Shown here in pieces: positions 13,721 to 44,103 of a DNA stretch of 64,000 bases. Origin of the DNA: Flagellimonas onchidii (GTDB lineage: Bacteria > Bacteroidota > Bacteroidia > Flavobacteriales > Flavobacteriaceae). Position numbers and translations under genes: made by a program. The DNA is taken from assembly GCF_004804315.1 (NCBI RefSeq), contig NZ_SRXX01000005.1, positions 62,001-126,000 of the forward strand. Direction: 5' to 3'. The notes below the pieces were generated by a model, which was given only the letters and a program-made list of their open reading frames with translations, was not told the DNA's origin and did no database searches. Every line of letters begins with the position of its first letter. Position 1 is the stretch's first letter.

Positions 13721-13729
13721 AAAGGGAAT

Positions 13730-14722: not shown

Positions 14723-14723
14723 T

Positions 14724-22596: not shown

Positions 22597-22736
22597 ATTA
22601 TTGACTGTCAAATAATTAACCTAATTTTATTGTAATTCCTTAAAAAAGGAGTTAAAAAAATCGACCCTTGACTAGGGGGTGCCCTTAATTATTGACACTA
22701 TAATACAAAGGCCATGTTTTGGCTATTAAAATCAAT

Positions 22737-23885: not shown

Positions 23886-23934
23886 ACGCTAACTTAAATA
23901 TGACCAACAACTAACGACCCAATAAATCACAAAA

Positions 23935-23962
23935 ATCGGAGGATGGGCCAACATCCCCCGAT
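23935..23962 (+). other. Intercistronic hairpin between fecR and susC
   Basis: ATCGGAGGATG and CATCCCCCGAT form an 11-bp stem with one mismatch and a 6-nt loop. No T tract follows, so it is more likely an RNA-processing or stability element, or a partial attenuator, than a full terminator. Confidence 0.55.
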
Positions 23963-23983
23963 AGCTAATCGTGATTCTAACTA

Positions 23984-27652: not shown

Positions 27653-27663
27653 AATTGCGTATT

Positions 27664-29661: not shown

Positions 29662-29688
29662 AATCTAAACATGATCAAATAGATGTCA

Positions 29689-29740
29689 CGAAGCCAAAAA
29701 ATGATTAAAGCAATTCGTTGGAAGTAAAATTTTGGCTTCG
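29689..29740 (+). other. Inverted repeat after susD
   Basis: CGAAGCCAAAA (29689-29699) and TTTTGGCTTCG (29730-29740) are perfect inverted copies around a 30-nt loop, in the 108-bp gap between susD and the small lipoprotein gene. It probably forms an mRNA hairpin that dampens read-through or protects the susCD message. Confidence 0.6.
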
Positions 29741-29769
29741 TACAACGATCAAAAAAATATAATAAACAA

Positions 29770-30108
29770 ATGAAAAGACTTTTTTATGTTATCCTGACAT
29801 TGGTTTTGGTGGTTTCTTGTACCAAAGATGATGAAGGATCTATATTCGGAAACGCAAGTGGAGATGACGGCAACATACTATCGGGCATTACTGTAAAGTT
29901 GTATTCCGAGAATACAGCATTGCTCACACAAACGACCACAGATGCAGAAGGTAACTTTACCTTTACGGGCCTGGATGCCGCCAATTATTATGTTGGTGCT
30001 ACCATTACTGTTGGTGACGTGGTTTGGGATACAGGTAATACCCCTCAAATTGTATATGTAGGAGGAGAGGCAGCTAGAGAAGTTGTACTTACCTTGAACC
30101 AGAAATAA
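29770..30108 (+). CDS. Small lipoprotein with a carboxypeptidase-regulatory/SpaA-like beta domain
   Basis: A 112-residue lipoprotein (signal ending VVSC, Cys17) with an acidic linker and one Ig-like beta-sandwich (about 33-110): GNILSGITVKLYSEN...TTTDAEGNFTFTGLDAANYYV. Such domains occur as prealbumin-like folds in Bacteroidota surface proteins. It is the last gene of the sigma/FecR/SusCD cluster and may be a surface accessory or glycan-binding protein, but no function is known. Confidence 0.8.
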   Translation: MKRLFYVILTLVLVVSCTKDDEGSIFGNASGDDGNILSGITVKLYSENTALLTQTTTDAEGNFTFTGLDAANYYVGATITVGDVVWDTGNTPQIVYVGGEAAREVVLTLNQK

Positions 30109-30184: not shown

Positions 30185-30454
30185 GATATAACGTCAAAGC
30201 AGTACCTACCCATTAATAAAAAGGAACTGAACAAGGCATAAATCAGTTGTTTTGTTCCATTGCATGCAAGCTTTTCGATATTTTACCACCTTGGTACCCA
30301 TACTATAGCTTCAACATGGATGATTAGCTGATAAGTGCAAAATATCCACTTCGAATTTTAATAATTTTTTCCTAACAATTATTTAATTGGAAACCTATCA
30401 ATCCTCAACTAAAAAAGTGAGTAATTTGAAACATAATTTTATTATTTGTAAACA
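30185..30454. other. Leader region of the first phosphonate operon
   Basis: 270 bp without a gene. It contains AAAAAGTGAGTA at 30412-30423, identical to 34272-34283 upstream of the second operon, and TTATTTGTAA at 30442-30451, close to the candidate operator near the second operon. Confidence 0.55.
30442..30451 (+). promoter_or_regulatory. Candidate XRE-cupin operator, operon 1
   Basis: TTATTTGTAA matches 9 of 10 bases of GTATTTGTAA found repeatedly near the regulator gene. It lies directly before the likely TTG start of the transporter gene. Confidence 0.4.
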
Positions 30455-31753
30455 TTGGCGTTATTCAGACGAACATCTGGGACAAACTCTAGGACTCCAT
30501 TTGTATTGCACGCTTCCCTCGCGGCATTTGGAACCTATTTTTGCATGTACGCCTATAGAAAACCGTTCTCTGTAGCAACATTTGAAGGATTAAGTTTTGC
30601 TGGGGTCGACTATAAGATATTGTTGATTATTGCCCAAGTATTGGGGTATGCCCTATCAAAGTTCATAGGCATAAAGTTAATCTCCGAATTAAGATCAAAC
30701 AAACGGTTACTTTACCTACTTATCTTCATTGCCTTTGCAGAAGCATCGCTATTCTTTTTTGCATGGGTTCCTGCTCCTTACAACATACTGTTCATGTTTT
30801 TGAATGGTATCCCTTTAGGGATGATTTGGGGAATTGTGTTTTCTTATTTGGAGGGAAGAAGGGTAACGGATATTTTGGGAATCGCACTTTGTGCAAGCTT
30901 CATTGTATCAAGTGGAGTGGTGAAATCAGTAGGACTTTACGTAATGACCTCTTGGGGTATTACAGAATTTTGGATGCCTTCCGTGACCGGAGCTCTGTTC
31001 TTGGTTCCGTTGGTAATATTTTCTTTATTGTTGCAGCAGGTCCCCCCACCGACGTCCAGAGATATGGAGCAACGTGCGGAACGAATTCCTATGACTAAAG
31101 AAGATCGTATCAAACTTGTAAAAAATTTCTTTTTCCCATTATCTATAATTGTCATTTTCTACACTTTTCTAACCGCTTTTAGGGATTTCAGGGATAATTT
31201 TGCCAGGGAACTTTGGGACAGCATAGGATACAAAGGAGATGCCTCCGTTTTTTCTACATCGGAGATTATAATTGCGATTATTGTTCTACTCATGATTGGT
31301 TCCGTTTTCTATATCAAAGACAATCTCAAGGCTCTTTTTACTTATCATTCGTTGCTTTTGTTGGGTACTCTGGTTCTTGGGCTGGCAACATTATTTTTTC
31401 AAATAGGGTTTTTAGACCCGTTCCTATGGATGGTACTTACAGGTTTTGGGCTTTACATTTGTTATGTACCCTTTAATTGCCTATTCTTTGACCGATTTAT
31501 TGCCACCTTTAAAATAAAGGGCAATTCCGGTTTCCTTATCTATATAGCGGACGCTTTTGGATATGTTGGAAGTGTTCTGGTCCTACTTTACAAAAACTTC
31601 GGACAAGCCAATCTTTCATGGCTTAATTTTTTTGTCTATGGCGCATACGCGGTCGCCCTGATTGGAACCGCAATTACCCTTACCTCGTTCTTTCATTTAA
31701 GGTCGAGGTCCAAATTAGATAACTTTAACGAACATTTATATAATGAACAATAA
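30455..31753 (+). CDS. DUF5690/MFS-like inner-membrane transporter of the phosphonate locus
   Basis: A 432-residue protein with about 11-12 membrane helices in a major-facilitator-like arrangement, including the family's AAFGTYFCMYAYRKPF start and the NGIPLGMIWGIVFSYLEGRR loop. The frame has no ATG before the first conserved helix (the first is at 30544, inside it), so TTG at 30455 is the likely start. Its stop overlaps the FAD-enzyme start by 11 bp, so it is translationally coupled to phosphonate catabolism. Uptake of an aminophosphonate or related compound across the inner membrane is inferred from context only; the family has no assigned substrate that I know of. Confidence 0.82.
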   Translation: MALFRRTSGTNSRTPFVLHASLAAFGTYFCMYAYRKPFSVATFEGLSFAGVDYKILLIIAQVLGYALSKFIGIKLISELRSNKRLLYLLIFIAFAEASLFFFAWVPAPYNILFMFLNGIPLGMIWGIVFSYLEGRRVTDILGIALCASFIVSSGVVKSVGLYVMTSWGITEFWMPSVTGALFLVPLVIFSLLLQQVPPPTSRDMEQRAERIPMTKEDRIKLVKNFFFPLSIIVIFYTFLTAFRDFRDNFARELWDSIGYKGDASVFSTSEIIIAIIVLLMIGSVFYIKDNLKALFTYHSLLLLGTLVLGLATLFFQIGFLDPFLWMVLTGFGLYICYVPFNCLFFDRFIATFKIKGNSGFLIYIADAFGYVGSVLVLLYKNFGQANLSWLNFFVYGAYAVALIGTAITLTSFFHLRSRSKLDNFNEHLYNEQ

Positions 31754-32900
31754 ATACGATGTCATCATTGTTGGAGGTGGTGTTTTAGGAACTTTCCATG
31801 CCTACCACGCACTAAAATTAGGTTTAAAGGTCTGTCTAGTGGAAAAAGATGCCTTCCCCAAAGGGGCAACAACGCAAAATTTCGGACAAGTGGTTCCCTC
31901 GGGTATGAATGTGAAATGGCAGAAATTTGGAAGGGAAAGTTTACAGATATACAAAGAAATACAGTCCTTATTCGATATTACAGTTCGCCAGCACGGAACC
32001 GTATATTTAGCCTCCAATGAAGAAGAAGAACAGTTGTTGGTGGAACTTAGAGCTATCAACAGTAATAATGACTACTGCTCGAAGATGCTCACACCCACTG
32101 AATGTTTTAATCAGTATCCAGGATTACAGGCAAATTATGCGAAGGCAGGGCTTTACTTTCCAGAAGAAGTAACCGTAGAGCCCAGAACAATGATTCATAG
32201 GTTGCAACAATATTTAGTAGATTACATGAATCTTGAACTTATTACAAATTTTTCTGTAACCTATTGTGAGAGCATTAATGGCGGAGTAGAAGTACACAAT
32301 TCGAAACACCACAAATTGGTTGCCGAAAAGGTTATTGTTTGTAATGGAAATGACTTTAAAACGCTCTATCCCGAAATTTTTGAAACCAGCGATTTAGAGG
32401 TGTCTAAACTGCAAATGATGCAGACAAAACCCCAAGAAAATTATTTATTAAAAGGGTCTGTATTGACAGGTTGGTCAATAAGGAGGTATGAAGCCTTCGC
32501 AGAGTGTCCTTCCTATCATGCCATAAAGGCCAATGAGCCCGAAGATAGCTTGCAAAAAAAATGGGGAGTACATATATTGTTCAAGCAAGCTTTTGATGGT
32601 TCGGTGATTTTGGGAGATTCACACCAATATGCCGATGCCAACCGTATAGATGATTTGGGATTTGATTTGGATATGGATATCGACAACTTTATGTTGCAAG
32701 AAGCCAAAAAAATCTTCCAATTGCCAAACTATGATATTCAGCATAGGTGGTACGGAATGTATTCCCAATGCAAAACAAAGGACATTTTTAATACAACTAT
32801 AGATAAGAATATCCATATCGTGACCAGTATTGGTGGCAAAGGAATGACAGGCAGTGCAGGATACTCCAAAAAGAACATCTCCAAAATTTTTAATGCATAA
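31743..32900 (+). CDS. FAD-dependent oxidoreductase, TIGR03364/PbfD-like (phosphonate catabolism)
   Basis: A 385-residue glycine-oxidase-like flavoprotein. The N-terminal FAD motif is VIIVGGGVLGTFHAYHA. The features that separate this phosphonate-associated group from other DAO enzymes are present: ATTQNFGQVVPSG, VTVEPR, VIVCNGNDFKTLYPEIF, KLQMMQTKPQ, WGVHILFKQ, GDSHQY and RWYGMYSQ. Characterised PbfD oxidises N-methylated 2-aminoethylphosphonate to phosphonoacetaldehyde. The enzyme lies between the transporter and the phosphonatase-like gene, which is the usual context. It is presumably cytosolic. The exact substrate here is inferred. Confidence 0.88.
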   Translation: MNNKYDVIIVGGGVLGTFHAYHALKLGLKVCLVEKDAFPKGATTQNFGQVVPSGMNVKWQKFGRESLQIYKEIQSLFDITVRQHGTVYLASNEEEEQLLVELRAINSNNDYCSKMLTPTECFNQYPGLQANYAKAGLYFPEEVTVEPRTMIHRLQQYLVDYMNLELITNFSVTYCESINGGVEVHNSKHHKLVAEKVIVCNGNDFKTLYPEIFETSDLEVSKLQMMQTKPQENYLLKGSVLTGWSIRRYEAFAECPSYHAIKANEPEDSLQKKWGVHILFKQAFDGSVILGDSHQYADANRIDDLGFDLDMDIDNFMLQEAKKIFQLPNYDIQHRWYGMYSQCKTKDIFNTTIDKNIHIVTSIGGKGMTGSAGYSKKNISKIFNA

Positions 32901-32909
32901 CCATAACTT

Positions 32910-33596
32910 ATGAAAGAAATAAAATTGACAGTCTTTGATATGGCTGGAACTACGGTAAACGAAAACAATGTAGTCTACAAAACCGTACAAAAAGCATTAG
33001 GCCATGCAGGTGTTGAGGTAGATTTGGATACCGTTTTAGAGTTTGGTGCGGGCAAGGAAAAATATAAAGCTATATTTGATATACTGGATAACAATACCGG
33101 TATAGGCGATTTAGAGGCTAAGGCCCATGAAGTTTTTGGTGTTTTCAAGGATATGCTCAAGCAAGCCTATCAAGAATTGGAAGTCACGCCATACGATGGG
33201 GTTGAGGAACTCTTCCGTTGCTTAAGGTCGAACAACATCAAAGTGGTTCTGAATACAGGATACGATTCGAAAACTGCCAATACTTTATTGAGCAAACTTG
33301 GATGGAAGGTGGGCAATCAAATTGATGGGTTGATTACCGCAACTGACGTCATAAAGGGAAGGCCTTCTTCTGAAATGATCGATAAAGCAATGGAGCAATT
33401 CAACATTACAGATCCATCTCGAGTGTTAAAAGCAGGGGACTCAATAATAGATATAGAAGAAGGTAAAAATACTAACTGCGGAATGACAGTGGGAGTATTG
33501 ACTGGAGCCCATACTAGGAAACAACTCGAAACAGCTGGGCCAACATTGATTTTAGACTCGCTCCAAGAGCTCAAAGAGGTATTATTGCTTAAATAA
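32910..33596 (+). CDS. PhnX-like HAD hydrolase (phosphonoacetaldehyde hydrolase-like)
   Basis: A 228-residue HAD-superfamily enzyme. Motif I is FDMAGTTV (nucleophile Asp10, with Ala12 instead of the second Asp), the signature of phosphonatases. The cap region has FGAGKEKYKAI, whose Lys49 may correspond to the Schiff-base lysine of PhnX. Motif II is LNTGYDSKTA, motif III GRPSSEMI, and motif IV AGDSIIDIEEGKN, followed by VGVLTGAHTRKQL typical of the TIGR03351 group. It should cleave the C-P bond of phosphonoacetaldehyde to acetaldehyde and phosphate. It is the last gene of operon 1; its end overlaps the convergent regulator gene by 8 bp. Confidence 0.85.
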   Translation: MKEIKLTVFDMAGTTVNENNVVYKTVQKALGHAGVEVDLDTVLEFGAGKEKYKAIFDILDNNTGIGDLEAKAHEVFGVFKDMLKQAYQELEVTPYDGVEELFRCLRSNNIKVVLNTGYDSKTANTLLSKLGWKVGNQIDGLITATDVIKGRPSSEMIDKAMEQFNITDPSRVLKAGDSIIDIEEGKNTNCGMTVGVLTGAHTRKQLETAGPTLILDSLQELKEVLLLK

Positions 33597-34155
33597 AGAA
33601 ATAAACCACTAACATTTTCGAGCTTATCTTTCCTTTGTTGATTGGAACATGTGGTATGCGTCCATCAAAAAAAATGGAGTCACCTTCTTTTAAAAGTACT
33701 TCTTGGTCACCAATGACGTAACAACATTCACCTGTCAGAATGTATTTGAACTCAAAAGCATCGGTAACTACCTTGTCTCGTTTGGAATTGGGCTGTACTT
33801 CTAAAAAGACACTCTCAAAACCTACGGAATTAAGCTGTTTCCCAAATATGTAATTGTATGTAAATCCAACAGCCTCATCCTCTTTTTCAATCAAGGTTTG
33901 ATCGTCCTTTCTCGAAACTAAAAAGTTGACTCCGTTTACTTTTGGCATCCCATCAAAGAAAATGGTCATTTCGGATTCCAGAGCATCTACAATTTTCAAA
34001 AAAACAGGTAATGAAGGTATGGTGCGACCATTTTCAATACGGGAAATCAACCCAGCAGTGACCCCCGCCTTAATGGCAATATCACTGATTGTTTTTTTGT
34101 TGTTTTTCCTGATTTCCTTTATTCTTTTTCCGATATTGATAAGATAATCCTCCAT
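33589..34155 (-). CDS. XRE-cupin transcriptional regulator
   Basis: A 188-residue protein with an N-terminal helix-turn-helix of the XRE/Cro type (about 8-62: IGKRIKEIRKNNKKTISDIA, GLISRIENGRTIPSLP) and a C-terminal cupin_2 sensor domain (about 105-185, with EFKYILTGECCYVIGDQE and LKEGDSIFFDGRIPH). Family members often respond to small molecules such as amino acids or amines and usually repress. It lies between the two phosphonate operons, antisense to the first and divergent from the second, and is the obvious candidate regulator of both. Confidence 0.9.
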   Translation of the reverse strand: MEDYLINIGKRIKEIRKNNKKTISDIAIKAGVTAGLISRIENGRTIPSLPVFLKIVDALESEMTIFFDGMPKVNGVNFLVSRKDDQTLIEKEDEAVGFTYNYIFGKQLNSVGFESVFLEVQPNSKRDKVVTDAFEFKYILTGECCYVIGDQEVLLKEGDSIFFDGRIPHVPINKGKISSKMLVVYFFI

Positions 34156-34180
34156 ATATTGTGCAATTTCTACTTTTTTA

Positions 34181-34190
34181 GTATTTATAA
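34181..34190 (+). promoter_or_regulatory. Candidate XRE-cupin operator, site 1
   Basis: GTATTTATAA, one base from the repeated GTATTTGTAA motif, 26 bp upstream of the regulator's own start; suitable for autoregulation. Confidence 0.4.
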
Positions 34191-34278
34191 CTTTATTGAA
34201 GTGTAATTCTTTTTGTTAACTTATTGCTATACAATAAAATACCAAATACTTCGCAGTGTGCAAGATAACATAAAAAGT

Positions 34279-34291
34279 GAGTATTTGTAAA
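34279..34291 (+). promoter_or_regulatory. Candidate XRE-cupin operator, site 2
   Basis: GAGTATTTGTAAA, a perfect inverted copy of the 13-mer at 34410-34422. It follows AAAAAGTGAGTA, which is shared with the leader of operon 1. Confidence 0.5.
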
Positions 34292-34409
34292 TAATATTAA
34301 ACTAACCTTAGGCTACTTCTTTTAACTTTTCGGTATCTATTTTTTAATCTAGATACTCCCGTCTCTTAACAATGGTGTTGGATATTTGTTGATAAATAAT
34401 TAACCAAAT

Positions 34410-34422
34410 TTTACAAATACTC
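34410..34422 (-). promoter_or_regulatory. Candidate XRE-cupin operator, site 3
   Basis: TTTACAAATACTC, the reverse complement of site 2, located 5 bp before the susC ATG. Binding here could block transcription or translation initiation. Confidence 0.5.
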
Positions 34423-34427
34423 AACAA

Positions 34428-37400
34428 ATGAAAAAAACACTAGTTACATTTTTATTCGTCTTATTGGCGAGCATCATGGGCTATTCCCAGGTTGTATTCA
34501 CAGGAACGGTCTTAGATGAAAACAATGTGCCGCTGCCTGGGGCATCGGTAGTCATCAAGGGCAGTAGTACGGGCGTAGCAGCCGATTTCGATGGAAAATT
34601 CGAAATTCAACTCTCTCAAGATGGAGATGTTTTAGTGGTTTCTTATATAGGTTACTTGTCACAGGAATTTGACACAACTGGAGAATCCACTGCAACAATT
34701 ATTTTACAACCCGATTCGCAAAAATTGGATGAGGTAGTTGTTACCGCACTTGGTATTGAGCGTGAAGCGAAAAAACTGGCATACGCTGTACAAAAAGTTT
34801 CTGGAGAAGAGATTTCTGAAGCGAAAGAAACCAATGTTGTAAACTCGTTATCCGGCAAGATGGCCGGAGTTCAGGTGACTGGTGGCAACTCTGGTGTAGG
34901 ATCATCTTCACAGATTATTATTCGCGGTGAAAGCTCGTTGAATCCAAATCCTAATGCAAATTCCCCGTTGTTCGTTGTTGATGGAATTCCAATCAACAAT
35001 AATGTAAGCAGTTTTAGTTCAGAAGGGAATATGGAAGTGGACCTTGGAAACGGGGCTATGGATATTAACCCTGATGATGTGGAAACAATGACAGTTTTAA
35101 AAGGCCCCAGTGCAACGGCATTGTATGGCTCTAGAGGAGGTAATGGTGTGATCTTGATCACCACAAAGTCAGGAAAAGGTAGGGGAGGTATAGGCGTATC
35201 CTTTACGAATAACACTACCTATGAAACTATCTTAACGCTTCCTGAATATCAGAATAGATATGGGCAGGGTTCTAATGGGCAATTCGCTTTTGGTGATGGA
35301 GGACAAAACAGATCTGTGACAGGCGGTATCAATGATCATGTTGATGAGAGTTGGGGTCCAGCATTGAATGGTCAATTGATTGCTCAGCATGATAGCCCAA
35401 CCTCAAGTGGTCTGCGTGCTGGTGATGTTAATGTTCGTCCAAGAAACCCAGATGGCACTTTTGCCGATGAGATTATTGCAACCCCTTTCAGCCCTCATCC
35501 AAATAATATTCGTGATTTCTTTAGAACTGGTTTTACCCTAAGTAATAATATTGCGCTGACTGGTGCTAACGAAGATGGCAACTTTAGAGTGTCATTTACA
35601 GATTTGCAGTCGGAAAGCGTAATTCCCAATTCCAATTTTAAGAGAAGGACCTATGCGGTCAATGGCTCGTACAATCTTACGGATTGGTTGAAGGTCACGG
35701 GATCCATGAATTACATCAATAGTAATTCACGTAATCGTCCCAATAATTCGTACGGTACAGAAAATATTATGTATTTGTGGATTTGGTTTGGACGCCATAT
35801 AGATATGAACCCTTTAAGGGATTACTGGCAGCCTGGCCTTGAAGGCGTGCAGCAATTCAATTACAATTATAACTACCACGATAACCCTTATTTTACAGTT
35901 TTTGAAAACACCAATGCGTTCAATAAGGATCGTTTGATTACCAACATGCGTGCTGATGTAAAACTGGCCAAAGGCTTGGATTTCATGTTCCGTACAGGTT
36001 TCGACTATTCCAATGAATTGAGTATGCGAAAAAGGGCTTATTCTACCCAACGTTTTCCAAACGGACAATATCGCGAGGATTATAACTATGCATACGAGCA
36101 GAATACCGATTTTTTGTTGACGTACAATACTGAGGTCAATAAAGATATAGACTTTGGAGCTTCGTTGGGAGGCAACCATCGTGCGGCAAAGAGCAGCTAT
36201 CAGCGAATTAGCGCAAACTCGTTGTCAGTTCCTGGTATTTACAACTTTGGAAATGCAGCTGAGCCATTAACTTCAAGTGATTTTGATAGTAAAAAAGAGG
36301 TGAACAGTTTGTATGCTTTTGCAAACGTGTCTTACAAGGATTATTTGTTTTTGGATATAACGGGACGTAACGACTGGTCATCCACGCTGCCAAGTGACAA
36401 CTGGAGTTACTTTTACCCGTCTGTGGGGGCAAGTGCCATAATATCAGACATGTTTACCATGCCAGAGTATATCAGCTTTATCAAGTTAAGGGCTGGTTGG
36501 GCGAGTGTCGGTAATGATACGGATCCGTATAATTTGGCTGCTACTTACGGTTTTGGAACGGCATTTAATGGTTTTTCAAGAGTGGACTCGCCGTCCGAGT
36601 TGAAAAACTCTGAACTTAAGCCAGAACGGACTAATTCTTTCGAGATTGGGGCTGATTTAAGGTTCTTCCAAAATCGTTTAGGCTTTGACATTGCGGCATA
36701 CAAATCCATTACCAATGATCAGATTCTTTCCTTGCCTGTTTCAAGTACATCAGGTTTCACCACTAGAGTTATCAATGCCGGTGAGGTAGAGAACAAAGGT
36801 ATAGAGGTCACTTTGTCGGCTACACCATTGAGAACAGATAATTTTAGCTGGAATACCAATGTGAACTTTACCATGAATAGGGGTAAAATCAAAGAACTTA
36901 CTGATAATCTAGATTTTTACCGAATTAAGAGCAATTACTTGATTGTAGGAGCTGAAGTTGGTGAAAGAATGGGTGATTTGTATGGTACGGGCTTTGAAAT
37001 GGTTACAGATAGAAACAGTCCATTTTTTGGTCAGTGGATTATAGATGAAGGTTCTGGATTGCCAATTAGAAGTAGTGAATTACGGAATTTAGGAAACTAT
37101 AACCCTGACTTCATGGTAGGCTTTCAAAACAGCTTTAGATATAAGAATTTAAGCTTAGGTGTATTGTTCGATTGGAGACAAGGAGGAGTTTATCACTCAA
37201 GAACTGTGGCTATTGGTGGTACAACAGGTATGTTGGATTTCACCGTGCCAGGCCGCGAAACCGGCATAGTTGCTGAAGGGGTTATTGATAATGGGGATGG
37301 AACATACACTCCAAATACACAAAGTGTAACAGCATCGAATTACTATTCGCATGTATATAGCCGTAGCAATGAGCAAAGTTCTATGTTCGATGCCACATAT

Positions 37401-37637
37401 GTAAAACTTCGAGAAGTAAAATTGAGCTACTCGTTGCCACAGAGCTTACTTAAAAAATTGCCTGTAAGATCGGCCAGTATTGCTCTTGTTGGAAGAAATC
37501 TTGCTCTTTGGACAGAGAATGATCATGTAGATCCAGAATCCATCTCTTTTTCAGGTGGAACCATTGTTCCTGGAGTGGAAGATATGGCCCTGCCCAGCAC
37601 CAGAAGTTTTGGACTTAACCTTAATGTAGAATTCTAA
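34428..37637 (+). CDS. SusC/RagA-type TonB-linked outer-membrane transporter of the phosphonate locus
   Basis: A 1069-residue protein: signal peptide (1-21), CarboxypepD_reg-like domain (about 24-100), LDEVVVTALGI TonB-box region, plug (about 120-245, with SPLFVVDGIPI and TALYGSRGGNGVILITTKSG), then a 22-strand-type barrel ending GLNLNVEF. Unlike the SusC at 24 kb it lacks an STN domain, so it is not coupled to a sigma/FecR system; regulation likely comes from the XRE-cupin protein. It is followed 31 bp later by susD. The imported molecule is probably a phosphonate-containing compound, inferred from the enzymes encoded downstream. Confidence 0.95.
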   Translation: MKKTLVTFLFVLLASIMGYSQVVFTGTVLDENNVPLPGASVVIKGSSTGVAADFDGKFEIQLSQDGDVLVVSYIGYLSQEFDTTGESTATIILQPDSQKLDEVVVTALGIEREAKKLAYAVQKVSGEEISEAKETNVVNSLSGKMAGVQVTGGNSGVGSSSQIIIRGESSLNPNPNANSPLFVVDGIPINNNVSSFSSEGNMEVDLGNGAMDINPDDVETMTVLKGPSATALYGSRGGNGVILITTKSGKGRGGIGVSFTNNTTYETILTLPEYQNRYGQGSNGQFAFGDGGQNRSVTGGINDHVDESWGPALNGQLIAQHDSPTSSGLRAGDVNVRPRNPDGTFADEIIATPFSPHPNNIRDFFRTGFTLSNNIALTGANEDGNFRVSFTDLQSESVIPNSNFKRRTYAVNGSYNLTDWLKVTGSMNYINSNSRNRPNNSYGTENIMYLWIWFGRHIDMNPLRDYWQPGLEGVQQFNYNYNYHDNPYFTVFENTNAFNKDRLITNMRADVKLAKGLDFMFRTGFDYSNELSMRKRAYSTQRFPNGQYREDYNYAYEQNTDFLLTYNTEVNKDIDFGASLGGNHRAAKSSYQRISANSLSVPGIYNFGNAAEPLTSSDFDSKKEVNSLYAFANVSYKDYLFLDITGRNDWSSTLPSDNWSYFYPSVGASAIISDMFTMPEYISFIKLRAGWASVGNDTDPYNLAATYGFGTAFNGFSRVDSPSELKNSELKPERTNSFEIGADLRFFQNRLGFDIAAYKSITNDQILSLPVSSTSGFTTRVINAGEVENKGIEVTLSATPLRTDNFSWNTNVNFTMNRGKIKELTDNLDFYRIKSNYLIVGAEVGERMGDLYGTGFEMVTDRNSPFFGQWIIDEGSGLPIRSSELRNLGNYNPDFMVGFQNSFRYKNLSLGVLFDWRQGGVYHSRTVAIGGTTGMLDFTVPGRETGIVAEGVIDNGDGTYTPNTQSVTASNYYSHVYSRSNEQSSMFDATYVKLREVKLSYSLPQSLLKKLPVRSASIALVGRNLALWTENDHVDPESISFSGGTIVPGVEDMALPSTRSFGLNLNVEF

Positions 37638-37668
37638 TAGAATAGATATCAAATCAAGATATAGTAAA

Positions 37669-39114
37669 ATGAAAACATATAAAAAAATAGCAGCTTTTAT
37701 TTTGACGGTGGGCATTACTTTTGCATGCACAGATCGATTTGAAGATATAAATACCAATCCAAACGCACCAGAAATGGTGAGCGCAGACTTGTTGGTTTCA
37801 ACAGTAACCTCCAATATCACCCGTACGCTGACGCAAGAGGGGTACAGCGATGGTAACACTATTACCCAATTAATGGCCAAAAATAACTTTCCAGGGTTTG
37901 GTCAGTTCGATTGGGGGGATCAGGGAATGTGGAGATTTTTCTATAATATTTTACCGGAAGTGAATGATATCATTGAAATCTCAAGGGCTGAAGGATCCCA
38001 GAATAGTACCTTTGAAGGTATTGCCTTGACACTAAGAGCTTTGTGCTTTGCCAATTTAACTGACCTGTATGTCAATGTACCTTATTCACAAGCTTTGGCC
38101 GGAGCAAGCGAAGGAATTTTTACGCCAGCTTATGATAGCCAAGAACAAGTGTATGACGGTGTGCTTCAGGATTTAGTCGATGCTGACGCGGCTTTGGCCC
38201 AAGGAGAAGTTATTGCTGGTAATTCTGGCGACGTGATCTATGGCGGCGATGCTTCTAAATGGAGGAAATTGGCCAATTCACTTCGATTACGCTATTTGTT
38301 GCGTATTTCAAAACAAAGAGACGTATCTTCAGAAATGCAAGCTATAGTTGCTTCCGGAAACTTTATAGCAACCAATGATGATAATGCTATATTAACTTAT
38401 AGCGGCACCTCAAATACTGATTCATGGCCGCAAAGTACAGGCCGTATTGGAGGGTTCGATGAGAAAAGTTTATGTACAACCGGTTTGGAGTATTTAACTC
38501 GTTTCAATGACCCTAGATTGGATATTTGGTTTGATCGCAATAGTGCCGGTGAATGGGTAGGTATACCAATTGGTTTGAATCAAGACAACGCAAGGGTTTA
38601 TGATGATGCCAACAGTCCAAGCCGTTTAGATGTGAATTTGTTCTATTTTTCAAGAACAGATGCCGAAGCGTTTATAATGAAAGCCTCCGAAGTACATTTT
38701 ATTTTAGCCGAGGCTGCTGAAAGAAACTTCATTTCAGGTGATGCTGAAACATATTATAATGAAGGTATCCGCGCCAGTCTTGCGTATTGGGGTGTTGGTG
38801 AGGCTGATATTGATGCCTACCTAACTCAAGATGAGGTAGCATATACCGATGGAGATTTTGAGTTGTTAATGACCCAAAAAACCTTGGCTTTGTGGAACGT
38901 TGATTATCAAGGATGGTTTAATTATAGAAGAACAGGTATGCCAGAGCTTGTTGCAGGCCCTGATAACTTGAACCAAGATCAGTACCCTGTTAGGTTTTTA
39001 TACCCTTCATCAGAGCAGGCCGAAAATGAAACTAATTATAATGCTGCGGTAAACGCTATTGGTGGAGATAATATTAACTCAAAAGGTTGGTGGGAGACCG
39101 GTACAAGATACTAG
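37669..39114 (+). CDS. SusD/RagB-like lipoprotein (SusD-like_2 type)
   Basis: A 481-residue lipoprotein (signal ending ITFAC, Cys20) with the DRFEDINTNPN start common in SusD_2 proteins, the helical core (ALTLRALCFANLTDLYVNVPYS, WRKLANSLRLRYLLRI) and a C-terminal HFILAEAAER segment. It acts as the substrate-capturing lid on the partner SusC at the outer membrane. Residues contacting ligand cannot be inferred. Confidence 0.94.
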   Translation: MKTYKKIAAFILTVGITFACTDRFEDINTNPNAPEMVSADLLVSTVTSNITRTLTQEGYSDGNTITQLMAKNNFPGFGQFDWGDQGMWRFFYNILPEVNDIIEISRAEGSQNSTFEGIALTLRALCFANLTDLYVNVPYSQALAGASEGIFTPAYDSQEQVYDGVLQDLVDADAALAQGEVIAGNSGDVIYGGDASKWRKLANSLRLRYLLRISKQRDVSSEMQAIVASGNFIATNDDNAILTYSGTSNTDSWPQSTGRIGGFDEKSLCTTGLEYLTRFNDPRLDIWFDRNSAGEWVGIPIGLNQDNARVYDDANSPSRLDVNLFYFSRTDAEAFIMKASEVHFILAEAAERNFISGDAETYYNEGIRASLAYWGVGEADIDAYLTQDEVAYTDGDFELLMTQKTLALWNVDYQGWFNYRRTGMPELVAGPDNLNQDQYPVRFLYPSSEQAENETNYNAAVNAIGGDNINSKGWWETGTRY

Positions 39115-39141
39115 GGCCCAATAAATATAAATAACTTTAAA

Positions 39142-39175
39142 GGGTTGCCTTGGTTACTATTATCTGGGGCAGCCC
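39142..39175 (+). other. Hairpin between susD and the phosphodiesterase gene
   Basis: GGGTTGCC and GGCAGCCC form an 8-bp stem (one G-U wobble) with an 18-nt loop, followed by ATTATTA rather than a clean T tract. It is likely a weak terminator or attenuator that lowers enzyme-gene expression relative to susCD. Confidence 0.55.
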
Positions 39176-39210
39176 ATTATTACCATAAAGTGTTAACAAA
39201 AATCAACGCC

Positions 39211-40869
39211 ATGCGAATAGCAAAGTTTTTCATAATCGCGCTAACTATACCTTTACTTTCTTGTGAGGTTAAGAAGAAATCCTCAACCGCACAGATTGAG
39301 CATGTAGTAGTCATTGGAATCGATGGAATGAGCCCCGATGGAATTCAAAATGCCCGCACCCCAATGTTGGACAGTATGATACAAAAGGGAGCTTCAACCA
39401 TGCATGGCAGGGCTGTCCTGCCCTCCAGTTCAAGTCCTAACTGGGCCAGCATGATTATGGGTGCGGATACTGAGCAACACGGCATTACCTCCAACGGTTG
39501 GGAAAAATTTGACCACCAACTCCCTCCTGTAGTAGTTACTCCAAATGGCACTTTCCCTACTATTTTTACCCTGTTTAAAGACCAAAAACCAGAAGCCCAT
39601 ATAGGTGCCATTTATGATTGGGATGGTTTTGGAAGATTATTCGAAAAAAGTGATGTTGATTTTGATATTGATGGAGATCATGAAGAAGGCACAACCCTAG
39701 ATGCCATCAATTATATTAAAGAACATACTCCGGATTTCACCTTTATTCATCTGGATCATGTTGATCATGCCGGCCATAGTATGGGACATGGAAGTCCAGA
39801 ATATTATAAATCTGTTCAAAAGGCAGATTCCTTAATTTCTCAGATTGTGGAAGCAACAAAAGCAGCTGGAATGCTCAAAAAAACGATGTTTATTGTTACC
39901 GCTGATCATGGCGGACTTGGTTTTGGCCATGGAGGAGAAAGTCTGGCAGAGATGAACATCCCGTTTATTTTATTTGGTGCGGGAATCAAAGAAGGATATG
40001 ATATTGAAGAGACTGTCTATCAAATTGACAATGCTCCCACCGTAGCCTATGCAATGGGATTGGAAATACCCCAAGCTTGGATAGGAAGACCAGTCATGGG
40101 AGCTTTTCTTGGAAACGAAAAACCAAGGCTAACCTATAGAAGACAAGAACAAATAACCCCTCCCAAAATTCTTCCTGATGCAGGATATTTTGAGCCTGCT
40201 GGTGGTGTTTTTAAAGCAGATTCGGTTCCCGTAGTCATTCAAAATCCAAATAATAAAGGGATTATCAGATTCACTTTGGGTGGTAGTTTACCAACACTGG
40301 AAAACAGCCAACAATACACCGATACCTTTTATTTGAAGAAAACAACAGTGCTAAAAGCGGGGATTTTCCAAGATGGAGCCATTAAGAGCACGGTAACAGA
40401 AGGAAGTTTCAGGATAGTTCCAAAAACAAAGGAAGATCCCGTAAGGTATCAGCTGTTTCATGGTGAAAAACTGGAAAAGCTTCCTGATTTTTCCACCTTA
40501 AAACCGGTTCAAGAAGGTTTTGTCATTGAGCTTTCCCACAAACAGTTAATCAATAATACAACCAAGGAAGACCAAATTGCCTTGGCTCTAGAAAGCTTTA
40601 TAGAAATTGATGAGGAGGGAAAGTACACTTTTTTCACGAACAGCGACGATGGCAGTAAACTTTATGTAAAGGGCAAACTGCTGGTTGATAATGACGGCAA
40701 CCACGGTGTAAGGGAACGAAACGGTAGTATAAATCTCAATAAAGGAAGGCATTTGATTCGGGTTGAATATTATAACGGTGGCGGAGGCTATCATTTGGCT
40801 GCCAAATATCAGGGCCCCAACATTGTCAAACAGATTATTCCTTCCAATCACCTGTACCCAACAAAATAA
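39211..40869 (+). CDS. Secreted type I phosphodiesterase/alkaline phosphatase-superfamily lipoprotein with PA14-like domain
   Basis: A 552-residue lipoprotein (signal ending IPLLSC, Cys18; the ATG at 39211 is chosen because it gives a proper signal peptide). The catalytic domain (about 30-330) has the two-metal site of nucleotide pyrophosphatase/phosphodiesterases: VVIGIDGMSPD, the nucleophile region SSSSPNWASMIMGAD, HLDHVDHAGH and VTADHGG.GFGHGG. A chitobiase-C/Fn3-associated domain (about 345-415) and a PA14-like domain (about 430-550, TNSDDGSKLYVKGKLLVDN) follow; the latter often bind sugars. Related enzymes include phosphonoacetate hydrolase PhnA, but the signal peptide points to an extracytoplasmic role, perhaps releasing phosphonates from conjugates. 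Confidence 0.88.
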   Translation: MRIAKFFIIALTIPLLSCEVKKKSSTAQIEHVVVIGIDGMSPDGIQNARTPMLDSMIQKGASTMHGRAVLPSSSSPNWASMIMGADTEQHGITSNGWEKFDHQLPPVVVTPNGTFPTIFTLFKDQKPEAHIGAIYDWDGFGRLFEKSDVDFDIDGDHEEGTTLDAINYIKEHTPDFTFIHLDHVDHAGHSMGHGSPEYYKSVQKADSLISQIVEATKAAGMLKKTMFIVTADHGGLGFGHGGESLAEMNIPFILFGAGIKEGYDIEETVYQIDNAPTVAYAMGLEIPQAWIGRPVMGAFLGNEKPRLTYRRQEQITPPKILPDAGYFEPAGGVFKADSVPVVIQNPNNKGIIRFTLGGSLPTLENSQQYTDTFYLKKTTVLKAGIFQDGAIKSTVTEGSFRIVPKTKEDPVRYQLFHGEKLEKLPDFSTLKPVQEGFVIELSHKQLINNTTKEDQIALALESFIEIDEEGKYTFFTNSDDGSKLYVKGKLLVDNDGNHGVRERNGSINLNKGRHLIRVEYYNGGGGYHLAAKYQGPNIVKQIIPSNHLYPTK

Positions 40870-40877
40870 AATACTTC

Positions 40878-42245
40878 ATGCAACAGAATACTTCAGGAAT
40901 CAGCCTAGAACATTTGGTTGAGGGAGACATTAATTTGACTCCGGCAAGGGGGCAATGGAATGGCTTTGTAGATAACCAAGAGGTAAAAGACTTACTGGAA
41001 AAAGATGCCAAATATTTTTTGCATCAGTCCATGTCTACACCCTGTTTAGATGTTTTAAAACATTGCGAAGGATCTTACATTCAAAGTGTTTCAGGTAAAA
41101 AGTACTTGGATTTCCATGGCAATAATGTGCATCAAATAGGATTCTCTCATCCAAAATTAATCAATCGCCTTAAGGAACAATTGCAGAACCTTACTTTTTC
41201 TACTAGAAGGTATACAAACGAAGTTGCCGTGGCTTTTGCGGAAAAATTGGTTTCGGTAACTCCGCAAGGGCTTGATAGAGTATTGTTCACTCCAAATGGA
41301 AGCTCTGCGGTTGGGATAGCATTAAAATTGGCCAGGGCTGTAACCGGAAAGTATAAGGTAGTTTCTTTTTGGGATTCGTTTCATGGCGCTTCTTTAGATG
41401 TGGTTGGAGCAAGTGGAGAGTCGATTTTTAGGGAACATATGGGGCCTTTGATGCCTGGGGTCATTCGTATTCCACCTCCGATTACTTACAGAGGTATTTA
41501 TGAAGGTAGAGAGGAAAAGGCCTTGGAATACTTGGAATATGTCCTTTCAAAAGACAATCAGATAGGAGCTTTTTTGGCCGAAACTATAAGGAATACCGAT
41601 GTTCAAATTCCATCAAAACACTTTTGGCAAGAAGCTAGAAGGTTATGTGATAGGTACAATGTACTGTTGATTTTGGATGAGATTCCCATTGCCTTGGGCA
41701 GAACAGGAAAAATGTTTGCTTTTGAACACTTTGGTATTGAGCCAGATATCTTATGTTTGGGTAAAGGTTTGGGTGGAGGTCTAATTCCTCAAGCAGCTAT
41801 AGTCACTCGAGATGAATACAATATCTTTCAGCATATTTCATTAGGGCATTATACCCATGAAAAAAGTCCGATGGGAGCAATGGCGGGGCTAACAGTACTT
41901 CAAATTATTGAAGAAGAAGATTTGTTGGGGAAAACCTGTCAATTTGAAAAGTACATGAAATCAACCTTACATAGAATGCACCGAAAGTATTCACTGATTG
42001 GTGATGTAAGAGGTATGGGATTGTTGTGGGGAATAGAATTGGTAACTGATAGGACAGGTAAAAAACCTGCTTTGATTGAAGCAGAGGAAATAATGTACGA
42101 ATGTCTCCGAAATGGTTTAAACTTTAAGGTATCCAAAGGCAACGTCATCCAGCTATCCCCTGCACTGACTATCTCTGAAGAAGAACTTCAAGATGCCTTA
42201 AGAATATTAAATGAAGCATTTCTAAAAATAAACACCATCACATAA
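40878..42245 (+). CDS. pbfA: PbfA-like PLP enzyme: (R)-1-hydroxy-2-aminoethylphosphonate ammonia-lyase
   Basis: A 455-residue fold-type I PLP enzyme of the class III aminotransferase family. The PLP lysine is Lys296 in CLGKGLGGG, with LILDEIPIALGRTG upstream. Features typical of the phosphonate-specific PbfA group are present: EGDINLTPARGQW near the start, DAKYFLHQSMSTPCLDVL, YLDFHGNNVHQIGFSHP and VSFWDSFHGASLDVVGASGE. Characterised PbfA converts (R)-1-hydroxy-2-aminoethylphosphonate to phosphonoacetaldehyde plus ammonia, the substrate of the HAD enzyme encoded at 32.9 kb. It is cytosolic. It starts 8 bp after the phosphodiesterase gene and overlaps the next gene by one base. Confidence 0.87.
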   Translation: MQQNTSGISLEHLVEGDINLTPARGQWNGFVDNQEVKDLLEKDAKYFLHQSMSTPCLDVLKHCEGSYIQSVSGKKYLDFHGNNVHQIGFSHPKLINRLKEQLQNLTFSTRRYTNEVAVAFAEKLVSVTPQGLDRVLFTPNGSSAVGIALKLARAVTGKYKVVSFWDSFHGASLDVVGASGESIFREHMGPLMPGVIRIPPPITYRGIYEGREEKALEYLEYVLSKDNQIGAFLAETIRNTDVQIPSKHFWQEARRLCDRYNVLLILDEIPIALGRTGKMFAFEHFGIEPDILCLGKGLGGGLIPQAAIVTRDEYNIFQHISLGHYTHEKSPMGAMAGLTVLQIIEEEDLLGKTCQFEKYMKSTLHRMHRKYSLIGDVRGMGLLWGIELVTDRTGKKPALIEAEEIMYECLRNGLNFKVSKGNVIQLSPALTISEEELQDALRILNEAFLKINTIT

Positions 42246-43834
42246 TGAGAAAAATTAGCCTTATCCTTAGTTGTTTTTTAATAGGTGCCGGAGTTATGGT
42301 AGCACAAGAAAAGCCACAAATTTTGGTTCAACCCTACTTGCAAAACGCAGAACCCAATTCCATTACCATAAAATGGGAGACCAGTTCCGGTGAAGAAAGT
42401 ATTGTGGAATGGGGAACAACACCGAAATTGGGCAAAAAAAGTAAAGGCTTTGCTTATGATATCAATTTTTCGGATTCAAGGGTACATGAAGTTGAATTGA
42501 CCAACCTTGAAAGGTTTACAGAATATTATTATCGCGTTAGGACAGACAAAACCTATTCGGATATTTTCCAATTCAAAACTCCTCCATTTGCCAGTGACAA
42601 TGAATCCTTCAACATGGTAGCTATGAGTGATATGCAAATTGACCACAATGAACCTGACAAGTTTCGAGAGATCATTAATGATGGGTTAATTCAGTATCTA
42701 AAGAAAACGTATGGAGGAGATGTCCCAAGCAATCTCGCGATGGTCTTAGTTCCAGGAGATTTGGTAGAAAACGGTGCGAAATACCATCAGTGGAAAGACC
42801 ATTTCTTTAATCCTGCGGAAAAACTCTTTGCCGAAGTACCGGTGTATCCTGTTTTAGGTAACCATGAAAGAAATTCGGTTTTCTATTTCAAATATTTTAG
42901 TCTTCCAGAGAATGGTACCCCCGCTTATGCTGAACATTGGTGGTACAAAGATTATGGCAATGTTAGAGTTATTGGCCTTAATTCAAATGAAGGCTATCGC
43001 GATGTGGGCTACCAATATGAATGGCTTCAAAAAGTTTTGGATGACACGGCCAAAAATGATGACATCGACTTTGTATTTGCGCAGTTGCACCATCCCCATA
43101 AGTCAGAACTATGGATTCCTGGGGAAGAAAAATCATCTGGAAAAGTAGTTAAGATGTTGGAGGGGTTTTCCACCAAAACTGGCAAACCCAGCATTCATTT
43201 TTTTGGCCACACCCACGGTTACTCTCGAGGGCAATCAAAAGATCATAAGCATCTTTGGATCAATGTGGCTTCCGCAGGAGGAGCCATTGACAATTGGGGT
43301 GAGTTTGAAGGGCGCGATTACGACGAATTCAGTGTGACCCAAGATGAATACGGATTTGTAATGGTCGAGGTGGATGGAAATCCATCTGATCCAAAATTTA
43401 CCATTAAAAGGATAAGCCGAGGCAACCAAGAACATTTCAGGAACAATGAACTTCGTGATAGCATTACCATCTTTAGAAAAGCTCGAAAGCCCATAACACC
43501 AAAACTTATCAGTCCCGAAAACAATGAAACCGTTGATTTTAAAGGAGTGTTTTTAAAGGCTAATGCATTTGAAAGTCCTTTTAATCGGGCTTTTCATGCG
43601 GCAAGCCATTGGCAAGTTTCAGAAAATACAGATTTTGAAAAATTGAGCTTTGAGCGTTGGAAACAACATGAAAACTGGTACTATAAGGTCAACAGGCAAG
43701 AAAACGACAACCTTACCGATGAAAAAACCGAGCGTTTAAAGCCCAATACTACCTATTATTGGAGGGTGCGCTATCGAGATCAAAATTTGAACTGGAGCGA
43801 TTGGTCCCAAACATCATCCTTTAAAACCAATTAA
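42245..43834 (+). CDS. Secreted metallophosphoesterase with purple-acid-phosphatase-like N-terminal domain
   Basis: A 529-residue exported protein with a signal peptide (1-21), a fibronectin-like purple-acid-phosphatase N-terminal domain (about 23-115, with ITIKWETSSGEES and YYYRVRT), a calcineurin-type metallophosphoesterase domain (about 120-385) and a C-terminal Fn3-like domain (YYWRVRYRDQNLNWSDW). The dinuclear-metal motifs are complete: MSDMQID, VPGDLVENG, LGNHE, LHHPH and FGHTHGYSR. The start codon overlaps the pbfA stop (TAATG), tying it to the phosphonate operon. Likely role: extracytoplasmic phosphomonoester or diester hydrolysis during substrate processing. Confidence 0.9.
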   Translation: MRKISLILSCFLIGAGVMVAQEKPQILVQPYLQNAEPNSITIKWETSSGEESIVEWGTTPKLGKKSKGFAYDINFSDSRVHEVELTNLERFTEYYYRVRTDKTYSDIFQFKTPPFASDNESFNMVAMSDMQIDHNEPDKFREIINDGLIQYLKKTYGGDVPSNLAMVLVPGDLVENGAKYHQWKDHFFNPAEKLFAEVPVYPVLGNHERNSVFYFKYFSLPENGTPAYAEHWWYKDYGNVRVIGLNSNEGYRDVGYQYEWLQKVLDDTAKNDDIDFVFAQLHHPHKSELWIPGEEKSSGKVVKMLEGFSTKTGKPSIHFFGHTHGYSRGQSKDHKHLWINVASAGGAIDNWGEFEGRDYDEFSVTQDEYGFVMVEVDGNPSDPKFTIKRISRGNQEHFRNNELRDSITIFRKARKPITPKLISPENNETVDFKGVFLKANAFESPFNRAFHAASHWQVSENTDFEKLSFERWKQHENWYYKVNRQENDNLTDEKTERLKPNTTYYWRVRYRDQNLNWSDWSQTSSFKTN

Positions 43835-43903: not shown

Positions 43904-43907
43904 TAAG

Positions 43908-43992
43908 TACTCGAGGCGGGACTTGAACCCGCACGGGCAAAATGCCCACAGGATTTTAAGTCCGGCGTGTCTACCAATTCCACCACTCGAGC
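43908..43992 (-). tRNA. tRNA-Leu (anticodon TAA)
   Basis: An 85-nt class II tRNA. The acceptor stem GCTCGAG pairs with CTCGAGT (terminal G-U), the D-arm reads TGGTGGAATTGGTAGACA, the anticodon loop holds TAA (GGACTTAAAATCC), a long variable arm (TGGGCATTTTGCCC) follows, and the T-arm is GCGGGTTCAAGTCCCGC. The discriminator is A; CCA is not encoded. Confidence 0.96.
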
Positions 43993-44003
43993 AGGACTTA
44001 AAC

Positions 44004-44029
44004 AAAAAAACGCTGCAAGCAGCGTTTTT
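44004..44029 (-). terminator. Terminator between tRNA-Gly and tRNA-Leu
   Basis: AAAAACGCTGC-AA-GCAGCGTTTTT, an 11-bp stem with a minimal loop, with T/A tracts on both sides. It lies in the 38-bp tRNA spacer and may act as a partial terminator or processing signal. Confidence 0.7.
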
Positions 44030-44030
44030 G

Positions 44031-44103
44031 AGCGAAAAACGGGATTCGAACCCGCGACCTCCACCTTGGCAAGGTGATGCTCTACCAACTGAGCTATTTT
44101 CGC
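44031..44103 (-). tRNA. tRNA-Gly (anticodon GCC)
   Basis: A 73-nt tRNA. The acceptor GCGAAAA pairs with TTTTCGC, the D-arm is AGCTCAGTTGGTAGAGC, the anticodon loop TTGCCAA gives GCC, and the T-arm is GCGGGTTCGAATCCCGT. CCA is not encoded. Confidence 0.97.

Follow-up and report, generated by a model that had tools for sequence, protein, structure and literature searches.

We analyzed a 64,000-nucleotide stretch of the Flagellimonas onchidii genome (the window; contig NZ_SRXX01000005.1 of assembly GCF_004804315.1, positions 62,001-126,000 of the forward strand) and found a locus of nine genes in which an outer-membrane SusC/SusD pair (SusCD) is joined to three families of phosphonate enzymes. 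The cluster is real and conserved, and it probably functions in aminophosphonate scavenging. The model as a whole, in which the locus obtains phosphorus from aminophosphonates bound to other molecules, seems to us likely. The strongest new element is the SusCD pair itself, which appears from sequence comparisons to behave as an exchangeable module.

Organization of the locus and proposed route

All nine open reading frames (ORFs) named in the original prediction were present at 30455-43834, with families as it had named them by NCBIfam and Pfam scores. They form two gene runs on the + strand plus one divergent regulator, in the order DUF5690-PbfD-PhnX-like (+), regulator (-), SusC-SusD-PDE-PbfA-MPE (+):

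30455..31753, + strand: DUF5690 membrane protein, likely an inner-membrane aminophosphonate permease (PF18943, 554 bits, Pfam)
31743..32900, + strand: PbfD-type flavin adenine dinucleotide (FAD) amine oxidase, predicted to convert N-methyl-2-aminoethylphosphonate (N-methyl-AEP) and 2-aminoethylphosphonate (AEP) to phosphonoacetaldehyde (TIGR03364)
32910..33596, + strand: PhnX-like HAD hydrolase, predicted phosphonoacetaldehyde hydrolase (TIGR03351)
33589..34155, - strand: XRE-cupin regulator, divergent from SusC (HTH_3 and Cupin_2, Pfam)
34428..37637, + strand: SusC TonB-dependent outer-membrane transporter (TIGR04056)
37669..39114, + strand: SusD surface lipoprotein (PF12771 SusD-like_2, 325 bits; lipobox-like TFAC in the N-terminus)
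39145..40869, + strand: secreted, probably lipoprotein, type I phosphodiesterase (PDE) with PA14 and CHB_HEX_C domains (PF01663, PF07691, PF13290)
40878..42245, + strand: PbfA pyridoxal phosphate (PLP) lyase (NF049939)
42245..43834, + strand: secreted purple-acid-phosphatase-like metallophosphoesterase (MPE; PF16656, PF00149)

PbfA (NF049939 equivalog, 706.9 bits against a cut-off of 525) and the FAD oxidase (414.3 against 285.1) passed their NCBIfam models clearly, SusC scored 676.9 bits against 368.25, and the PhnX-like protein passed narrowly (223.6 against 218.9). The DUF5690 ORF begins with TTG at 30455, and its true start may differ. The likely start of PDE is 39211, with LLSC in the N-terminus; among PDE relatives, a hydrophobic N-terminal stretch was found in 43 of 44 and the strict lipobox pattern in 14 of 44. 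SusC and SusD are contiguous with the secreted PDE and MPE genes, as in PusCD loci, and no glycoside hydrolase or lyase was found by Pfam among the nine genes.

From the observed gene content, conservation, linkage, residues and motif we infer the following substrates, transport, catalysis and regulation. SusC/SusD would capture a phosphonate-bearing molecule, such as a phosphonolipid head group or a phosphonate-decorated glycan fragment, and move it across the outer membrane. Cleavage of the phosphonate ester, at the cell surface or within the periplasm, would fall to PDE with help from MPE, and DUF5690 would bring the free aminophosphonate into the cytoplasm. PbfD would oxidize N-methyl-AEP or AEP to phosphonoacetaldehyde, and PbfA would eliminate ammonia from (R)-1-hydroxy-AEP (R-HAEP) to give the same product, which the PhnX-like enzyme, with its retained Schiff-base Lys, would split into acetaldehyde and phosphate. 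The XRE-cupin protein would govern both gene runs through a shared dyad operator.

SusCD is linked to phosphonate genes across Flavobacteriaceae

A PbfA scan of a genome collection comprising 84,980 species recovered 587 relatives or more, of which the best 80, with flanks of up to 10 kb, were analyzed. This sample is biased to near relatives; 45 of its loci are Flavobacteriaceae-like (L009-L052 and L062) and 35 lie outside the family. SusC and SusD were located in one unbroken same-strand run with PbfA (gaps of at most 350 bp) in 40 of the 45. The five misses are L027, which starts at PbfA, L033 (Kriegella aquimaris), which has SusCD outside the run, and L030, L035 and L052, which have none. 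Most of the 45 loci also contained PDE (44), MPE (39) and the regulator (36), while the counts for PbfD (35), PhnX-like (35) and DUF5690 (19) are underestimates, as the 10-kb flank often ends there. The four Leeuwenhoekiella loci L039, L042, L044 and L045 and Flavobacterium sp. RSP15 (L041) carried the identical gene set in a different order.

Two further secreted genes recurred in the 45 loci, an AP-superfamily gene (36) and an MBL-fold gene (27). The AP-superfamily gene comes after MPE in relatives and had no match in the F. onchidii genome, in a search run without a positive control. The MBL-fold gene, found between PDE and PbfA in many relatives (8725-9996 in L009), is missing from the window's locus, and the genome has only a 45% relative on another contig.

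The reverse test covered 149 whole Flavobacteriaceae genomes, one per genus, a set that probably overlaps with the 80 loci, so that the counts are not additive. PbfA was over the cut-off in 9 genera, TIGR03364 in 9, DUF5690 in 11, PhnX-like in 10 and PhnW in 0. TIGR03364, PhnX-like and DUF5690 occurred together, within about 7 kb, in nine genomes. SusD genes with at least 50% identity to that of the window were found in at least seven genomes (own 100%, then 79, 76, 74, 52, 52 and 50%), a lower bound because ten candidates were scored in each genome having many. All seven, among the matches listed, were about 10 kb or less from PbfA or from DUF5690/PhnX-like genes. More distant SusD relatives (at most 42%) lay beside PbfA in some cases (G011, G108) and elsewhere in others, for example near ABC-importer-like genes (L134, L136). 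The gene set of the original prediction thus recurs across genera, and its SusCD genes do not usually occur without phosphonate genes: among the matches listed for the 149 genera, SusD genes at this identity stood only beside them. Chance adjacency of SusCD and the phosphonate genes was rejected on the strength of the conserved runs (40/45) and the 149-genus SusD test.

SusCD appears to be an exchangeable module

We compared identity matrices for the 36 loci having all five genes under comparison. PDE and the regulator followed PbfA (rho 0.77 and 0.80, respectively), and SusC followed SusD (0.76) and in part PbfA (0.52). The identity of SusD barely tracked that of its neighbours, giving a rho of 0.16 with PbfA (reached in 25 of 999 permutations), 0.13 with the regulator (77/999) and 0.21 with PDE (7/999). 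PbfA identity is 80% or more in 148 pairs, 70 of which have SusD below 45%, and it is below 73% in 402 pairs, 77 of which have SusD at 72% or more. L018 and L020, sisters on the PbfA tree (100/99), share 94% identity in PbfA and 35% in SusD. The closest SusD to the window's comes from Zobellia (78%), although PDE identity between the two is only 47-50%. On the PbfA tree, SusD type (five groups at 60% identity) switches no fewer than 10 times. The record of L020 is named Algicola sp., a gammaproteobacterium, and groups inside Muricauda/Allomuricauda on this tree; it is probably a misnamed metagenome-assembled genome (MAG).

The edges of the exchanged segments could be seen in close relatives. 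When Arenibacter L031 was compared with L030, the alignment ran to 3 bases past the DUF5690 stop and resumed about 105 bases before the PDE ORF, with 5.07 kb containing SusCD in one locus and 228 bases in the other; L034/L035 were nearly alike. Between L009 and L012, continuous homology ended about 450 bases into SusC and resumed some 125 bases inside the PDE ORF; the intervening stretch held short islands. The evidence for incongruence between SusD and PbfA comes from the matrices, the sister pairs and the 10 type changes; a one-clade test on SusD is a weak argument, as its 19 rows were chosen by locus number and form no clade on the PbfA tree either, and the tree is long-branched. The sequences support the exchange of SusCD itself, and the pair appears to occupy a fixed slot in which it is swapped between species.

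Phosphonate chemistry in the genome

The F. onchidii genome (4.2 Mb, 57 contigs, 99.94% complete) was searched with profiles for other phosphonate genes. The best match to PhnW (TIGR02326) scored 37.7 bits against a cut-off of 400.8, in a search where no control genome passed the cut-off and three genomes (G006, G018 and G129) gave 348-352 bits; the PhnW-like genes of these three stand beside OPA transporters. For canonical PhnX, the best score in the genome was 91.4 bits against a cut-off of 220, from the locus's own PhnX-like gene, again with no control above the cut-off. PhnJ of the C-P lyase had no match, and the E. coli positive control was detected. PhnW elsewhere in the genome, considered as the missing step, was not found in this whole-genome profile search. 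PhnW and C-P lyase had been noted as absent from the window, which was borne out and extends to the whole genome, while Phn ABC transporter genes were not searched genome-wide. With no PhnW, canonical PhnX or PhnJ found, the only route to phosphate seen in this genome is the one in which PbfD and PbfA supply the PhnX-like enzyme. Provided that the cell uses phosphonates by a known route, the path would lead from PbfD and PbfA through phosphonoacetaldehyde to the PhnX-like enzyme.

In an alignment of 47 PhnX-like and 8 canonical rows, the Asp, Lys and GRP-motif Arg columns were kept in all. We take the Asp to be the nucleophile and the Lys the Schiff-base residue of phosphonatase.

PbfD1 is annotated as TIGR03364, and both PbfD1 and PbfD2 prefer N-methyl-AEP and also act on AEP (13500 and 3400 per M per s for PbfD2; PMC10590968). 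In the available text of the same paper, AEP oxidation is described as possibly desirable in organisms without PhnW, with M. fucicola named. As PbfD enzymes also oxidize plain AEP, the substrate need not be methylated. FAD-type oxidoreductases of another kind were observed beside phosphonate genes in L119 (14030-15277) and L125 (14869-16110). No NCBIfam model matched them at the strict threshold of E 1e-50, and they are possible further aminophosphonate oxidases.

The inner-membrane step

Across 114 annotated loci (overlapping genomes included), DUF5690 was found in 49 and an OPA/AepP-like transporter in 8 (two of these, L033 and L125, probably represent a single genome); no locus had both. 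PDE, PbfA, PhnX or PbfD accompanied DUF5690 in every case, most loci having been fetched for one of these. DUF5690 has 12 averaged hydrophobic peaks, and R35 and R243, invariant in 31 rows, lie just after peaks 1 and 7. Four OPA rows have invariant R31 and R248, at similar places in the chain. Twelve spans with Arg at spans 1 and 7 are a feature of the OPA family. Pfam gave no MFS match to DUF5690 at E 0.001. The AEP permease AepP is a relative of GlpT (PMC8316502). From these observations we infer that DUF5690 probably fills the permease slot. In L126 (G129, C22), DUF5690 has a diverged PDE and a regulator of cupin type as neighbours, and no further phosphonate gene was recognized in 20 kb, suggesting that a DUF5690-PDE pair can work alone.

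A motif shared by the two gene runs

Candidate operators were found before both runs:

30407..30454, + strand: candidate operator in two copies ahead of the first operon, one diverged (30407-30438) and one exact, TATTTGTAAA (30443-30452)
34282..34293, + strand: candidate operator 1, the dyad TATTTGTAAATA, at about -146 before SusC in most loci having it
34410..34419, - strand: candidate operator 2, TATTTGTAAA, at about -18 before SusC in most loci having it

A 32-base imperfect repeat is common to both upstream regions. The dyad recurs in the gap between regulator and SusC at near-fixed places, about 146 and 18 bases before SusC. In L009-L052, the exact 10-mer (either strand) was located upstream of 34 of 35 regulators, 31 of 41 SusC genes and 2 of 353 other ORFs; as a single gap usually separates the regulator from SusC, the first two counts are not independent. 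The 10-mer was rare in L053-L088 (regulator 1/12, SusC 1/6, other ORFs 0/492). Before DUF5690, it was found in 3 of 10 cases in L009-L052, 2 of 15 in L053-L088 and 5 of 10 in the G loci. The window contains three exact copies (30443, 34282 and 34410), all in this locus, a modest count against 0.73 expected, with 3 reached in 4 of 100 shuffles. Allowing two mismatches, the window gave 6 copies against 7.38 expected, no better than chance, so only the exact 10-mer and its fixed places carry weight.

Relatives of the regulator (36, with 59-91% identity) occur in the Flavobacteriaceae loci. The motif data support the XRE-cupin protein as the probable controller of both gene runs. The motif before both runs likewise suggests that SusCD is co-regulated with the phosphonate enzymes in the window and in part of the relatives.

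PbfA loci beyond the family

PbfA was over the cut-off in 15 genomes of a phylum sample of 395, and 14 further PbfA loci were read from 13 of the 15 (G000 and G001 excluded). One of them, L139 (Flavobacteriaceae), has SusCD, PDE, DUF5690, PbfD and PhnX-like together. In others, outside the family, PbfA was combined with PhnW, PhnA, PhnY, PhnX, PDE, OPA or DUF5690 genes. Nine large unlabelled ORFs of the outside-family loci were checked and gave TonB receptors in L140 and L141 and no SusD. L084, a MAG of a different lineage, joins canonical PhnX, a GlpT-type transporter, PhnW, PbfA, SusC and SusD.

Orphan PbfA loci, mostly of Chitinophagaceae and kin, were observed in L053, L055, L058-L060, L068, L070-L072, L078, L082 and L141-L145, of which L141 and L142 probably are the genome of L082. 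They reflect either R-HAEP use without a cluster or another function. On plasmids, PbfA (E 1e-100) was found in 16 records, from proteobacterial genera throughout.

The combination of pbfA, phnY and phnA is said in the available text of PMC12366243 to occur only in Proteobacteria. Contrary to this, L033 and its probable duplicate genome L125 carry PbfA, PhnA and PhnY in a row (PbfA 727.4 bits in L033; PhnA 474.1 against 407.55 and PhnY 642.3 against 635.65, both in L125), and BLAST found the three genes in L140, L146 and L147 too. L033 also carries PhnW, an OPA transporter, PDE and SusCD; AepP of Kriegella aquimaris was already listed among those adjoining PhnWAY, PhnWX or other catabolic genes (PMC8316502).

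Substrate and alternative explanations

Glycans and glycolipids of marine snails and other organisms carry N-methyl-AEP and AEP (PMC6994554). R-HAEP was originally obtained from polysaccharides of Acanthamoeba, and HAEP forms a head group of a Bdellovibrio sphingophosphonolipid (PMC8154272). Such conjugates would first need a phosphonate-ester hydrolase, matching the secreted PDE, and their size would suit a TonB gate.

Several observations speak against a SusCD-fed aminophosphonate pathway. Of 5 Arenibacter loci, 3 (L030, L035 and L052) have no SusCD next to PbfA, and 13 of 15 Dyadobacter loci lack it in the PbfA run while retaining most other genes (2 of 15 have SusCD in the run). In the phylum sample, none of the 13 outside-family PbfA loci that were read contained SusD. 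Of the 35 named PbfA loci that lie outside Flavobacteriaceae, 11 had none of the searched phosphonate genes within 10 kb, and L141-L145 had no clear phosphonate neighbour, two of them showing a gene that weakly resembles PhnY (23 and 29%). The PhnX-like protein falls short of the canonical phosphonatase equivalog TIGR01422 (98.1 bits against a cut-off of 220), and where the canonical enzymes have His, three residues past the Lys, all 47 PhnX-like rows have Ala. TATTTGTAAA is absent before SusC in 10 of 41 cases, including Leeuwenhoekiella, Arenibacter, Kriegella and L041, and its background is higher in the G loci (6 of 181 other ORFs). DUF5690 was not established as an OPA member, having no match to solved transporters (PDB) up to E 10 and a probability of just 5.8 in a profile comparison with OPA. 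With no glycan-cutting enzyme among the nine genes, a large phosphonoglycan is an unlikely substrate, which points to small conjugates. To our knowledge, TonB transport of a phosphonate has no demonstration. As SusCD is missing from these Arenibacter and Dyadobacter loci, it is an optional part of the system: an add-on, near-constant in PbfA-bearing Flavobacteriaceae and rare elsewhere. The predicted import of a phosphonate-bearing molecule by SusCD is consistent with the linkage, the occurrence of close SusD relatives beside phosphonate genes among the matches listed, and the motif; it is tempered by SusCD being optional, and the idea is already present in PMC8115612.

The gene content could also suit a general organophosphate-scavenging system, in which SusCD imports many phosphodiesters, such as phospholipid head groups, and the phosphonate enzymes handle the phosphonate share. 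The window encodes two secreted phosphoesterases and relatives as many as four, PusCD pairs of low-phosphate conditions are known to occur with phosphodiesterases (PMC8115612), and in L135 a related SusCD (39% SusD) stands beside an AP-superfamily gene and none of the searched phosphonate genes. We regard this as unlikely, given that SusD genes at 50% or more were only beside phosphonate genes, among the matches listed, and that the regulator and motif tie SusCD to PbfD and PhnX-like in the window and in part of the relatives. It is less probable still that the family names mislead and the PLP, FAD and HAD enzymes act on non-phosphonates (amino-alcohol phosphates or another amine). The sub-cut-off score on the phosphonatase equivalog and the Ala of the PhnX-like protein fit that reading, as do the PbfA relatives without searched phosphonate neighbours, mostly in Chitinophagaceae and kin. 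Against it, one cluster holds three phosphonate families, L084, L140 and L146-L148 place the PbfA family with PhnW, PhnX, PhnA or PhnY, and the Pbf oxidases tested were inactive on the non-phosphonate analogues tried (PMC10590968). An ordinary glycan importer adjoining a phosphonate cluster by chance is strongly disfavoured and the least probable of all: SusCD pairs are plentiful, and an unrelated one lies just upstream (23984-29661), but the link is conserved over many genera and in two gene orders, several SusCD types occupy the same slot, and glycoside hydrolases are absent from the nine genes.

A separate question is why SusCD is exchanged. Our tentative suggestion, held at somewhat less than even chances, is that the cytoplasmic and periplasmic aminophosphonate pathway stays largely constant and the outer-membrane gate is gained, lost and swapped between species by recombination in flanking genes, with each type opening a different phosphonate conjugate. 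Only a little less plausible is that SusCD is exchanged by itself to escape phages, bacteriocins or predators that use the surface protein, with no change of substrate. The swapping seen in the sequences would fit such evasion as well; SusC/RagA proteins are surface exposed, and ragAB allele variation is known. The full absence of SusCD from some Arenibacter and most Dyadobacter loci fits optional import at least equally. If the gate is swapped to change substrate, the loci would provide a natural set of phosphonate-specific SusCD variants, and phosphonates would be a ligand class of TonB-dependent SusCD import.

Neighbouring genes in the window

The locus is directly followed by tRNA-Leu(TAA) and tRNA-Gly(GCC) at 43907-44103, with MutS beyond them. 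Near relatives have other genes downstream, so the locus may have arrived by insertion next to these tRNA genes. A second SusC/SusD pair lies upstream (23984-29661) with ECF sigma and FecR anti-sigma genes, within a stretch (22006-30108) that ends in a small protein with a lipoprotein-like N-terminus. This pair was ruled out as part of the system, since none is there in the relatives read 2-5 kb upstream of DUF5690. At 10370-16679, genes for a 1116-aa protein with a type IX secretion signal, a PorP/SprF protein and an OmpA-domain protein stand in a row; the 1116-aa protein sits in the highest-GC stretch of the window (0.48 at 10001-12000).

Comparison with known systems

In the sea, aminophosphonates are a sizeable source of phosphorus, some of which is bound to lipids and glycans. 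In the literature searched, we met no answer as to how bound phosphonates cross the outer membrane. The locus gives a complete candidate route from the surface to phosphate and suggests roles for DUF5690 and the PhnX-like family. The gene set of PbfA, PbfD, PhnX-like and DUF5690, its breadth, the motif and the cassette behaviour were not found in that literature, which included few subscription journals and no preprints; a term search for "phosphonate" found it nowhere in the main text of PMC6298971, on 400 polysaccharide utilisation loci of North Sea Flavobacteriia.

The concept is not new, since phosphate-starvation SusCD pairs beside phosphodiesterases and phosphonate-degrading enzymes have been reported (PMC8115612). 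The Flavobacterium PUS/PusCD loci of that paper are alike in having a SusCD-like pair with phosphodiesterases and phosphatases in place of carbohydrate-active enzymes. They differ in that the available text names no PbfA, PbfD or PhnX-like gene and no phosphonate function, and in that PUSI has an ECF sigma factor (Fjoh_4171), whereas here an XRE-cupin regulator adjoins SusC. The phnWX-pbfA and phnWYA-pbfA clusters (PMC8154272, PMC12366243) share PbfA, a phosphonoacetaldehyde-using step and the ancillary PbfD. They have ABC or OPA transporters, as far as their available descriptions go, where DUF5690 is found here; in F. onchidii, PhnW and canonical PhnX were not found in the genome and SusCD is present. 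The PbfD oxidases (TIGR03364; PMC10590968) are matched by a family score over the cut-off, the one here being a Bacteroidota member known from its sequence. AepP, the 2-AEP permease of the OPA family (PMC8316502), holds the inner-membrane slot in related clusters; it belongs to a different Pfam family from DUF5690, and the resemblance is only suggestive. Polysaccharide utilisation loci likewise have a SusCD core, secreted hydrolases and a dedicated regulator; the nine genes here contain no glycoside hydrolase or lyase. The natural SusCD swaps on a similar background allow direct tests of substrate specificity. The locus carries the phosphate-SusCD idea further, to an exact gene set found in many marine genera, and is a well-defined new variant among the phosphate-utilisation SusCD loci with an outer-membrane gate.

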